Assembly: GCA_903831575.1 (NCBI GenBank)
Contig: CAIKYB010000013.1
Location: 1-64,000, forward strand
Origin: an uncultured Bacteroidota bacterium
GTDB lineage: Bacteria > Bacteroidota > Bacteroidia > Chitinophagales > Chitinophagaceae
DNA length: 64,000 bases
Direction of reading: 5' to 3'
The notes below the pieces were generated by a model. It worked only from the letters and a program-made list of their open reading frames with translations. It did not search any database and was not told the origin of the DNA. Each line of letters starts with the position of its first letter. Within the stretch, counting starts at the first letter, position 1. Made by a program: the position numbers and the translations under genes. This document shows positions 11,758-63,310 of the stretch, piece by piece.

Positions 11758-11817
11758 TAACCCCTTTTTACAATCCATCAACAATTTTCAACCAACTTCA
11801 ACAAATTTTAACCTTCT

Positions 11818-12450
11818 TTATCCCATCTCTGTAATGAAATCTGCTGTCGCTCTTCTTACTTTCTTTAAATTAACCAACCAATCTTTTTCTGCATCTCTAT
11901 ATCCAAGAGGCAAAAGCACTACACTTCTCAATCCTTTTTCATTTAGGCTCAATAAAGCATCTAAGGCCTTAGCGTCAAAGCCCTCCATTGGGGTAGCATC
12001 TACCTCTTCAGCAGCTGCAGCCATTATCGCAATTCCTAAAGCGATATAAGCTTGTTTTGCAGCGTGGGTAAAATTCTCTTCCGCAGATTTAGCAGAATAA
12101 GAAGATAAGAGCATCTTACGGTAATTTTCCCCTCCTTCAGAAATGAACCCTCTAACTTCATTGGCAAGGTCAAACATTTTATTAATTCTTTCTGCTGTAT
12201 AGTTATCCCAGGCTGTAAAAATGAGTAAATGAGAACAATCTGCAACCATTGTTTGGTTGTATGCTAAAGGTTTTATTTTTTCTTTCAATTCCTGATTGGA
12301 AATCACAATAAGTTCAATAGGCTGAAGCCCACTTGATGAAGGAGCTAATCTTGCAGCTTCTATGATATTATCTACTTTTTCCTGAGGTATTTTCAGGCCA
12401 TTCATTGATTTGGTAGCATAACGCCAATTGAGTGATTCTATAATATTCAT
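11818..12450 (-). CDS. Nitroreductase-family NAD(P)H-dependent FMN oxidoreductase
   Basis: 210 residues of the NfsB/YdjA-like fold. It starts MNIIESLNWRYATKSMNG; the RYATK segment and APSSSGLQP are FMN phosphate-binding positions. The dimer-interface KQAYIALGIAIMAAAAEEVDATPMEGF and the C-terminal LPLGYRDAEKDW follow. The family reduces nitroaromatics, quinones or flavins with NAD(P)H. The -7 box is 18 nt upstream of the start. It is convergent with the Fe-S membrane gene. Confidence 0.88.
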   Translation of the reverse strand: MNIIESLNWRYATKSMNGLKIPQEKVDNIIEAARLAPSSSGLQPIELIVISNQELKEKIKPLAYNQTMVADCSHLLIFTAWDNYTAERINKMFDLANEVRGFISEGGENYRKMLLSSYSAKSAEENFTHAAKQAYIALGIAIMAAAAEEVDATPMEGFDAKALDALLSLNEKGLRSVVLLPLGYRDAEKDWLVNLKKVRRATADFITEMG

Positions 12451-12468
12451 AATTCATTTATTTTTTTG

Positions 12469-12476
12469 CAAATATA
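12469..12476 (-). promoter_or_regulatory. -7 box for the nitroreductase gene
   Basis: TATATTTG on the minus strand, 18 nt before the start codon, so any leader would be very short. Confidence 0.55.
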
Positions 12477-12551
12477 ATTATTAAATGAAAAATTTACAGA
12501 AATGATCCTTGCAATTCAAGAGAAATTTTTAATTTCTCAGTTCTGTTTAAC

Positions 12552-61443: not shown

Positions 61444-61507
61444 ATGTATATTATTTTATTATTTATATTATGTCGACTAAGCCAAAAACGAAGAAAAAAA
61501 AGGAAAG

Positions 61508-63136
61508 TTAACTGTATAATTCAACTCTTTGTTCCTTAACCCTTTCGTCATTAAGATACTCATCGTAAGTCATTAATTTATCAATCATACCCTTCGGCGT
61601 AATTTCAATAATACGATTAGCAACAGATTGCATGTATTGATGATCGTGAGTAGTGAATAACACGATGCCGGAAAAAGTAAGCATGCTGTCATTAAAGGCA
61701 ATAATACTCTCCAAATCTAAATGATTAGTGGGTTCATCAAGAATCAAAACGTTTGGATTTTGCAACATCATTTTACTTAACATACACCTTACTTTTTCTC
61801 CCCCGCTTAGCACTGATGTCATTTTCATGATTTCATCCCCACTAAATAACATTTTTCCTAAAAATCCTCTTAAGAAATCCTCATCTACATCTTTAACACT
61901 TGGAGGCACAAATTGACGCAACCAATCCATCAAATTGTAATTACTATCGTGAAAATATTCAGTATTATCATTAGGCAGGTAGGCTTTAGTAATGGTTGTA
62001 CCCCATTCGAATGTACCTGTATCTGCTTTTGACCTACCATTAATAACTTCAAAAAAAGTAGTCAATGCCAATGGATCACGACTTAAAAAAGCTATACGCT
62101 GGTTTTTTTGTATGTCAAAATTCAATTTGCTAAATAATTTCTTGCCGTCTATAATCTTAGAAAGATTTTCAACTTTCAATATTTCATTTCCTACTTCACG
62201 ATCCTGCTTAAAAATAATTCCAGGGTATTTTCTATTTGATGGCTGGATATCTTCTATCACTAATTTTTCCAGCGCTTTCTTACGACTTGTTGCCTGCTTG
62301 CTTTTAGAAGCATTGGCACTAAATCGAGCGATAAATTCTAACAAATCTTTGCGCTTGTCTTCTACTTTTTTATTTTTATCAGACATCTGACGGGCCGCCA
62401 ATTGCGAACTTTCATACCAGAAAGAATAGTTTCCCGTATATACTTTTATTTTACTTCTATCCACATCAGCAACATGCGTACATACTGAATCTAAAAAGTG
62501 ACGATCATGACTTACTACCAAAACAATATTTTCATAATCGGCCAAAAAATTCTCCAGCCAGGCAATCGTTTCTACATCAAGATTATTCGTAGGCTCATCC
62601 AATAATAAAATATCCGGATTGCCAAATAAAGCTTGGGCCAATAAAACCCTCACCTTTAGATTCGCGCCTATATCTTTCATCAATTGCTGGTGTAAACTAT
62701 CTTCAACGCCCAACTCACTTAATAAAGTAGCCACATCACTTTCTGCCGTATAGCCACCCATCTCGCCAAACTCATGTTCAAGCTCCCCTGCCTTCATTCC
62801 ATCAGCTTCACTAAAATCTTCTTTGGCATAAATAGCGTCTCTTTCATGCATCACTTTCCAAAGCTTTTGATGGCCAATTAATACTGTATTGATTACCGTT
62901 TGCTCGTCAAAAGCAAATTGATTTTGATTCAAAACAGCCATTCGCTCTCCTGGCGTAATGTCAATTGTTCCCTTATTGGGCTCTATTTCTCCACTGACGA
63001 TCTTAAGGAATGTTGATTTGCCGGCACCATTAGCACCAATGACACCATAGCAATTCCCTTTAGTAAAATTGATATTTACTTCATCGAACAAAACCCTTTT
63101 ACCGTAGGCTAACGTTATATTATTTGCACTTATCAT
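61508..63136 (-). CDS. ABC-F protein, YbiT-like, with one degenerate ATP site
   Basis: 542 residues from the ATG at 63136; the -7 box at 63153-63160 is only about 17 nt before it. Two nucleotide-binding domains: NBD1 has Walker [10 protein letters not shown], Walker [12 protein letters not shown], and the signature region [14 protein letters not shown] without LSGG. NBD2 has a signature LSGGEKVRC and Walker [12 protein letters not shown], but its P-loop reads [13 protein letters not shown] without the GxxxxGKS/T. There are no membrane segments. ABC-F proteins act on ribosomes. The two degenerate motifs belong to one composite ATP site. Confidence 0.9.
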
Positions 63137-63152
63137 AGTTGTAAAAAGTGTA

Positions 63153-63160
63153 CAAATATA
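63153..63160 (-). promoter_or_regulatory. -7 box of the ABC-F gene
   Basis: TATATTTG on the minus strand, 16 nt before the start codon. Confidence 0.55.
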
Positions 63161-63310
63161 CAAGAGTTAGTTGATTAGTTGACTAGGTTATGCTAGTTGA
63201 TTAGCGAAAGGTTGATTAAGGACAGTTTGTTGGGTACTTAATTAGGATCTTAGTGCTTTACCCAACCAATCAACCATTGAACCATTGAACCAATCAACTA
63301 ATCAACTAAT
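63161..63310. repeat. Inverted GTTGATTAG / CAATCAACC array at a divergent junction
   Basis: The left arm reads AGTTAGTTGATTAGTTGACTAGG and AGTTGATTAG; the right arm reads AACCAATCAACCATTGAACC and ATCAACTAATCAACTAATGG. It lies between the divergent ABC-F and argS genes and between their promoters. Confidence 0.75.

Follow-up and report, generated by a model that had tools for sequence, protein, structure and literature searches.

The window, a stretch of 64,000 nt with a G+C content of 34.5%, belongs to contig 13 of a 46-contig genome (2.44 Mb) of an uncultured member of the Bacteroidota. Genes were called with a simple gene finder of our own, and all junction classes given below rest on these calls. 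The intergenic regions carry arrays of short GTTGA units, which appear as TCAAC when the array lies on the minus strand. All eight intergenic arrays described in a sequence-only reading of this DNA were recovered, and the five which it had placed between convergent genes are also convergent according to our gene calls (Table 1). Two-armed sites, with a GTTGA-type arm on the left and a TCAAC-type arm on the right, are found at 31316, 45027, 56755, and 63161, as had been reported.

Table 1. Arrays and array arms in the window (junction classes according to our own gene calls)
Position	Strand	Feature	Junction	Relation to neighboring genes
11778..11803	-	weak TCAAC array, 3 units	convergent, 11758-11817	nitroreductase gene 11818-12405 (minus strand), stop 14 nt off; GTTGA on its sense strand
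18437..18598	-	20 TCAAC/CAACC units with spacings of mainly 8 and 4; the window's largest array	co-directional	between plus-strand genes 17719-18222 and 18666-20081; closer to the start of the downstream gene
21343..21400	+	GTTGA array, 8 units	co-directional	7 nt past the stop (TAG) of plus-strand gene 20085-21335
31319..31354	+	left GTTGA-type arm	convergent, 31315-31443	downstream of the stop codon of S46 peptidase gene 29167-31314
31402..31441	-	right TCAAC-type arm	convergent, 31315-31443	ends 2 nt short of DUF4197 gene 31444-32211 (minus strand)
45039..45093	+	left arm, mostly GTTTA units and one GTTGA	convergent, 45027-45130	follows plus-strand gene 44703-45026
45112..45131	-	right arm, two TCAACC units	convergent, 45027-45130	reaches the minus-strand DUF6526 gene 45131-45565
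48640..48677	-	single-armed array, 8-nt units TCAACCAT	convergent, 48523-48679	peroxiredoxin gene 48680-49318 (minus strand) has its stop (TAG) 2 nt off
56758..56790	+	left inverted-repeat arm, 33 nt, 85% complementary to 56860-56892	convergent, 56748-56889	past the M13 peptidase stop
56860..56911	-	right arm and array of CCAATCAA units	convergent, 56748-56889	extends over the end of enolase-superfamily gene 56890-57921 (minus strand)
63167..63215	+	left GTTGA-type arm	divergent, 63137-63334	ABC-ATPase gene 61508-63136 (minus strand) starts next to it
63263..63310	-	right TCAAC-type arm; perfect complementarity with the left arm over 16 nt	divergent, 63137-63334	ahead of the plus-strand gene starting at 63335

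The description of arrays running exactly up to the stop codon of a minus-strand gene needs some adjustment: the array at 48640 comes within 2 nt of the stop and that at 56865 overlaps it, the TGA being located within a unit. Because this array overlaps the end of the enolase-superfamily gene, it encodes the stop codon and the last residues (YWLIG); the C-terminal ends of the corresponding genes in relatives differ from YWLIG.

Other repeats occur close to the arrays. A 51-bp unit with a CACCCCTAACGGGGT palindrome is repeated 3.5 times at 18245-18419, immediately ahead of the largest array, and a similar 46-bp unit fills a convergent junction elsewhere in the genome (G000:C16:229118-229283). 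The array region at 45027 contains a AAGTCGCTGCGCTGG-like segment (45055-45075), of which there is a near copy at the S46 junction of the relative G005 (locus L234). Within the window, no Rfam family matched at the gathering threshold, and a tRNA search found no tRNAs.

Frequency, growth, and distribution of the arrays

Clusters, defined as three or more TCAAC/CAACC units with gaps of up to 20 nt, were counted in the window and in 400 kb from two other contigs (464 kb in total). There are 17 intergenic clusters compared to a mean of 0.0 in 20 Markov-1 shuffles. The arrays are real and beyond chance. Three clusters are found within genes (0.8 expected), all in one repetitive ORF (27-1154), which has internal repeats of 435 bp and 150 bp; its CAACC content yields the three in-gene clusters of the window. 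In the whole genome, the pattern TCAACNNNTCAACNNNTCAAC has 51 matches, and its reversed form has 4. GTTGA and GGTTG are the top over-represented pentamers in the 3' flanks of genes, although GTTGA is absent from the top strand-biased k-mers of these flanks. The hexamer GCGACT is also over-represented there.

A sample of 763 kb (31% of the genome, selected in part for the presence of arrays) contains 61 arrays, 57 of which are located outside predicted genes. The unit consists of GTTGA and a variable linker of 3 nt; spacing is mostly 8 nt, but values of 4, 10, 11, and 12 also occur. The elements have units in common rather than one shared sequence. Linkers are identical in a fraction of 0.46 of the pairs within an array compared to 0.16 of the pairs between arrays, from which we conclude that arrays grow via local duplication. 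This anatomy (units, their polarity as described below, and homogenization within arrays) is firmly established.

Within 20 nt of a gene end, 39 arrays of the own genome are found at the 3' end and 3 at the 5' end. Only 4 of 33 array-abutted genes use TAA as stop codon compared to 461 of 656 genes overall, the others having TAG or TGA. In 16 of the 33, gene and array overlap, and here the TGA or TAG is part of the repeat.

At least one pattern match was detected in 19 of 59 relatives and in 31 of 296 members of the phylum, several of which have no more matches than the reversed control. The close relatives G005, G011, G023, and G026 (74-81% protein identity) have 0 to 4 matches, and the repeat units vary from lineage to lineage. 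The single rich genome of the phylum set is G094, a one-contig genome from another genus of the same family (82 matches, 3 for the reversed pattern). Two contigs of a relative, G055, end inside perfect TCAACCAA arrays (G055:C10:1-77 and G055:C14:3-71). Arrays thus probably break assemblies and are under-counted.

These data fit, in part, with neutral satellite growth, in which slippage during replication would enlarge hairpin or stop-proximal seeds up to the point where they reach coding sequence, without a role in transcription. The likeness of linkers within arrays, the patchy presence in relatives with units differing by lineage, and the overlap with coding ends, where arrays supply stop codons and C-terminal residues, all accord with it. 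We nevertheless consider neutral growth rather unlikely as the explanation, in view of features described in the following two sections.

Outward polarity of the units

The main new result, which had been missed by the sequence-only reading, is a polarity rule which covers not only convergent but also co-directional and divergent junctions. As seen from the nearest gene edge, the unit reads GTTGA outward and TCAAC inward. This applies to 107 of 127 arrays from six genomes and all junction classes, scored by whether GTTGA falls in the left half of an intergenic region and TCAAC in its right half, and omitting arrays which span half or more of their region. All 14 two-arm regions in these genomes are G-first. 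The rule is strictest close to genes: less than 30 nt from the nearest edge, 73 arrays are outward and 3 inward (3' edges: 60 and 2; 5' edges: 13 and 1). From 30 nt onward, the counts are 39 outward and 17 inward. The rule is not apparent among arrays which have a 3' edge as their nearest edge but are more than 80 nt away from it; 3 of these are outward and 7 inward.

In G094, which was added to the set afterwards, 39 of 44 arrays follow the outward rule, with 15 of the 20 regions having been selected for holding a pair. The complete, unselected list of 82 matches from this genome forms 38 clusters, of which 16 contain both orientations, and all 16 are G-first. Tandem repeats of other units in these lineages (GTTTAAG, GTTTGGT, AACCTTA, TTAGTAG, and others) obey the rule in 43 of 54 cases. 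Among 80 loci (744 kb) from unrelated named genomes, skewed tandem repeats were outward in 5 and inward in 5 of 10 cases. Polarity is thus not general to bacterial tandem repeats, as far as this small sample goes. Non-array intergenic DNA of the own genome has a weak skew in the same direction as the arrays.

A rule restricted to the sense strand (3'-UTR) was dropped in favor of the outward rule, as 5' edges obey it too (38 compared to 5). A stop-codon buffer as the sole cause was also rejected, as it leaves the 5' edges unexplained. Under neutral growth, polarity would be a by-product of seed symmetry and coding edges: outward GTTGA supplies stops (TGA, TAG) after a gene, and inward TCAAC ahead of a start codon adds no spurious ATG, GTG, or TTG and little structure. 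However, polarity is kept by units without in-frame stops such as GTTTGGT, and it is also found among arrays which are not within 30 nt of an edge (39 compared to 17, see above).

Intrinsic terminators and hairpins at array-bearing junctions

In the own genome, arrays are present at 16 of 60 convergent, 30 of 319 co-directional, and 3 of 103 divergent junctions (divergent vs. convergent: p = 9.6e-6). The statement that arrays are mostly at convergent junctions therefore applies to the enrichment per junction, but in absolute numbers most array-bearing junctions are co-directional.

Intrinsic terminators (hairpin and T-run) were found at none of the 16 convergent junctions with an array compared to 18 of 44 without (p = 0.0013). 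For all junctions, the numbers are 3 of 49 with and 75 of 433 without an array (17 of 482 in shuffles); for co-directional junctions alone, they are 2 of 30 and 48 of 289 (p = 0.19). G094 behaves similarly, both at convergent junctions (0 of 4 vs. 16 of 25, p = 0.030) and overall (0 of 26 vs. 41 of 155, p = 0.0015), and pooling the convergent junctions of both genomes gives p = 1.4e-5. The contrast persists when convergent junctions of the own genome must have at least 50 nt of non-array DNA (0 of 8 vs. 16 of 35, p = 0.018). Exclusivity is weaker when their length is restricted to 80-300 bp (0 of 13 vs. 5 of 17, p = 0.053), and it is not significant in the five other relatives (2 of 9 vs. 16 of 38, p = 0.45). 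Neutral growth alone predicts neither the absence of terminators nor the convergent enrichment.

Orthologous junctions, for which the neighboring genes were checked, show ordinary terminators in some relatives upon inspection by eye: a hairpin and T-run is present at the M13/enolase junction in relatives L204 and L205 and at the S46/DUF4197 junction in L237. At the S46 junction of G005 (L234), GTTTGGT and CCTATCCAG arrays are found which are not complementary to each other and have the same polarity as the arrays of the window. The sequence-only reading had suggested bidirectional transcription stops, a nucleoid or protein-binding element, or products of replication or recombination. From the convergent enrichment, the 0 of 16 terminators, and the ordinary terminators of relatives, the first of these three appears to be the best supported.

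That reading had also proposed a long imperfect hairpin. Some sites bear this out, as do the arrays of G094 as a rule. It does not extend to the own genome at large, in which a strong partner arm was found for only 4 of 57 arrays (none on the other side). In the window, fold z-scores relative to mononucleotide shuffles are -3.84 (31316), -1.46 (45027), -2.76 (56755), and -3.92 (63161), and the single-armed 48640 site has +0.37. Near-perfect short-loop hairpins of about 20 bp occur at two junctions of the own genome, where 10 of 49 array regions fold above the 90th percentile of non-array regions. Locus-specific complementarity, assessed by an unfiltered test on arrays, is not in excess in this genome (-0.82, p = 0.998). 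The hairpin as a general principle of the own genome is ruled out by these three results (10 of 49; 4 of 57; p = 0.998). For 36 of 43 G094 arrays, a partner arm is present where expected, compared to none on the opposite side, and folding is strong, with a median z of -4.31 in 22 array regions of up to 200 nt. When flanks are swapped between G094 loci, 30 arrays still find a partner arm; most of the complementarity thus stems from the shared vocabulary, with a slight locus-specific contribution in the unfiltered test (own minus others +2.25, p = 0.0006).

Arrays are tightly packed at the co-directional junctions of G094. Of its co-directional array-bearing spacers, 16 of 18 are 134 bp or shorter, and of the arrays nearest a 5' edge, 16 of 20 are within 32 nt of the start codon. 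This would suit a post-transcriptional element: an intercistronic or 3' hairpin, or a G/U-rich 3'-UTR strand, which would stabilize the upstream mRNA or tune downstream translation with a REP-like effect, or which would bind an RNA-binding protein. The G094 element often occupies the whole gap from stop to start codon, it folds well, and its arms are slightly locus-specific. Arrays of the own genome are mostly single-armed and are devoid of locus-specific complementarity, and those at convergent junctions serve no downstream gene. On balance, we regard a post-transcriptional element as improbable.

A possible transcript boundary and its known parallels

We tentatively favor, at somewhat less than an even chance, that the arrays are polarized gene-boundary elements which would take over from intrinsic terminators in defining where transcripts end, in either direction, acting in a rut-like manner with Rho. 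Each array, built of short units which multiply through local tandem duplication, adjoins or overlaps the edge of a gene, and its GTTGA strand points away from that gene. On its way out of a gene, RNA polymerase would then meet the G/U-rich strand first; on its way in from outside, it would transcribe the C-rich, nearly G-free, and YC-rich strand (UCAACCAAUCAACC) last. Arms at both edges could form a long hairpin without U-tract on either strand. The C-rich inward strand might serve as a rut-like loading site for Rho, and the hairpin, where present, might shield the trimmed 3' end. We infer that transcripts end at arrays, that Rho takes part, and that selection on transcription imposes the polarity.

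The inward strand has 37% C, 1% G, and 17.5 YC dimers per 78 nt, which is in part due to the construction of the search motif. The genome encodes Rho (RNA-binding domain PF07497, 124.3 bits, G000:C16:206641-206862). The Rut sites of B. subtilis are U/C-rich, lie antisense to genes in about 80% of cases, and include bidirectional tandem pairs (PMC12350095), and the arrays resemble them in having a C-rich, G-poor, unstructured strand antisense into genes and in forming bidirectional pairs. Rho-dependent ends in E. coli consist of a hairpin followed by C-rich, G-poor DNA (Dar and Sorek, 2018, as cited in PMC13289151), a hairpin without U-tract being common to these and the arrays. Unlike the arrays, neither Rut sites nor Rho-dependent ends are tandem repeats.

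The strongest point against the boundary model is the tight co-directional packing in G094. The short spacers leave scant room for a promoter, so that a strong terminator would silence the downstream gene, and an intercistronic RNA element fits better. With respect to rut, efficient self-termination would want a C-rich sense strand right past the stop codon, but 3' edges show the opposite. Furthermore, most arrays of the own genome are without a hairpin partner, close relatives manage without arrays, the rule fails beyond 80 nt from a 3' edge, and non-array intergenic DNA has a weak skew of the same kind.

REP elements and BIMEs are extragenic palindromes near gene ends with proposed roles in termination and mRNA stability. 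REPs are 20-40 bp in length and form a family of fixed sequence, whereas the sequence of the arrays turns over. A mobile palindrome (REP or MITE), moved by RAYT/Y1 or another transposase, would account for the inverted-repeat form and the dispersed copies, and Y1_Tnp genes are present in G003, G006, and G094 as well as in the own genome. However, such genes are present in 35 of 39 genomes of the same genus, array-free ones among them, and none of nine Y1_Tnp neighborhoods has an array of three or more units. A link to RAYT was thus not found in these genomes and neighborhoods, and what the copies have in common is the vocabulary of units and not the sequence of a whole element. We consider mobility of this kind very unlikely.

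In the literature library searched, array sequence strings retrieved one unrelated match and no description of the GTTGA unit. TAACTGA direct repeats are another case of intergenic short tandem units; they occur in some Bacteroidetes, and their overlap with coding ends is limited by stop codons (MacGregor, 2015; PMC4679880). TAACTGA is a fixed heptamer which, in the Beggiatoaceae genome, mostly precedes start codons by a few nt, and outward polarity is not reported in the part of that paper considered here. The arrays do not belong to this group, as unit and length differ and they lie mostly at 3' ends (39 vs. 3 at 5' ends within 20 nt in the own genome).

The sequence-only reading knew of no name for this family, but there is a close published parallel (Rehm et al., 2015; PMC4692102). 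The heptamers GGGAATC from Xanthomonas and GGGGA(C/T)T from Nostoc, studied as G-quadruplex (G4) formers, have their G-rich strand outward from the nearest ORF, that is, sense after the stop and antisense before the start. Like the arrays, they are short intergenic tandem units which overlap stop codons and are less frequent at divergent junctions, and those of Xanthomonas form inverted repeats from convergent pairs; the paper leaves their function unresolved (PMC4692102). The arrays themselves have the G-rich strand outward, are under-represented at divergent junctions, and form inverted pairs in convergent orientation. They differ in being mostly octamers (GTTGA and 3 nt), A/T-richer and without GGG tracts, from Bacteroidota, with locus-specific linkers and several vocabularies side by side. 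Absence of terminators was tested for the arrays; such a test was not seen in the parts of PMC4692102 considered here.

In Xanthomonas, transcript starts and stops are more common at G4-forming repeats than at control repeats (PMC4692102), which counts in favor of a transcript boundary. The geometry shared with the Xanthomonas and Nostoc repeats would allow for action via G4, as suggested for these heptamers. A two-tier G4 is formally possible in 17 of 61 own arrays, but a three-tier G4, as expected for a GGG heptamer of that type, is possible in none of the 61 (unit mostly 8 nt) and in 1 of 36 in G003. Many units have a single GG or none, and we consider action via G4 extremely unlikely.

The polarity in common with the repeats of Rehm et al. 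(2015) from other phyla suggests that there may be a general cause. One conceivable, though doubtful, generalization is a strand-composition code for gene borders, in which fast-turnover repeats of 7 to 8 nt with lineage- and phylum-specific units, G-rich outward and C-rich inward, would keep their polarity because they act as bidirectional Rho-type boundaries. The Xanthomonas, Nostoc, and GTTGA repeats would then have arisen convergently under one such code, and intrinsic terminators would be swapped over short evolutionary times. Cyanobacteria are without Rho (PMC13289151), so Rho is not the whole answer for the Nostoc repeats, and under such a code Nostoc would need another factor.

If arrays without a fixed sequence replace intrinsic terminators, terminator prediction in genomes of this kind is incomplete and transcription-unit maps need revision. 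The arrays may thus represent a little-known kind of gene-boundary element. A polarity without three-tier G4 potential, in common with repeats from two other phyla which were studied for G4 formation, separates the geometry from the G4 idea and brings the long-open role of these repeats within reach of a test.
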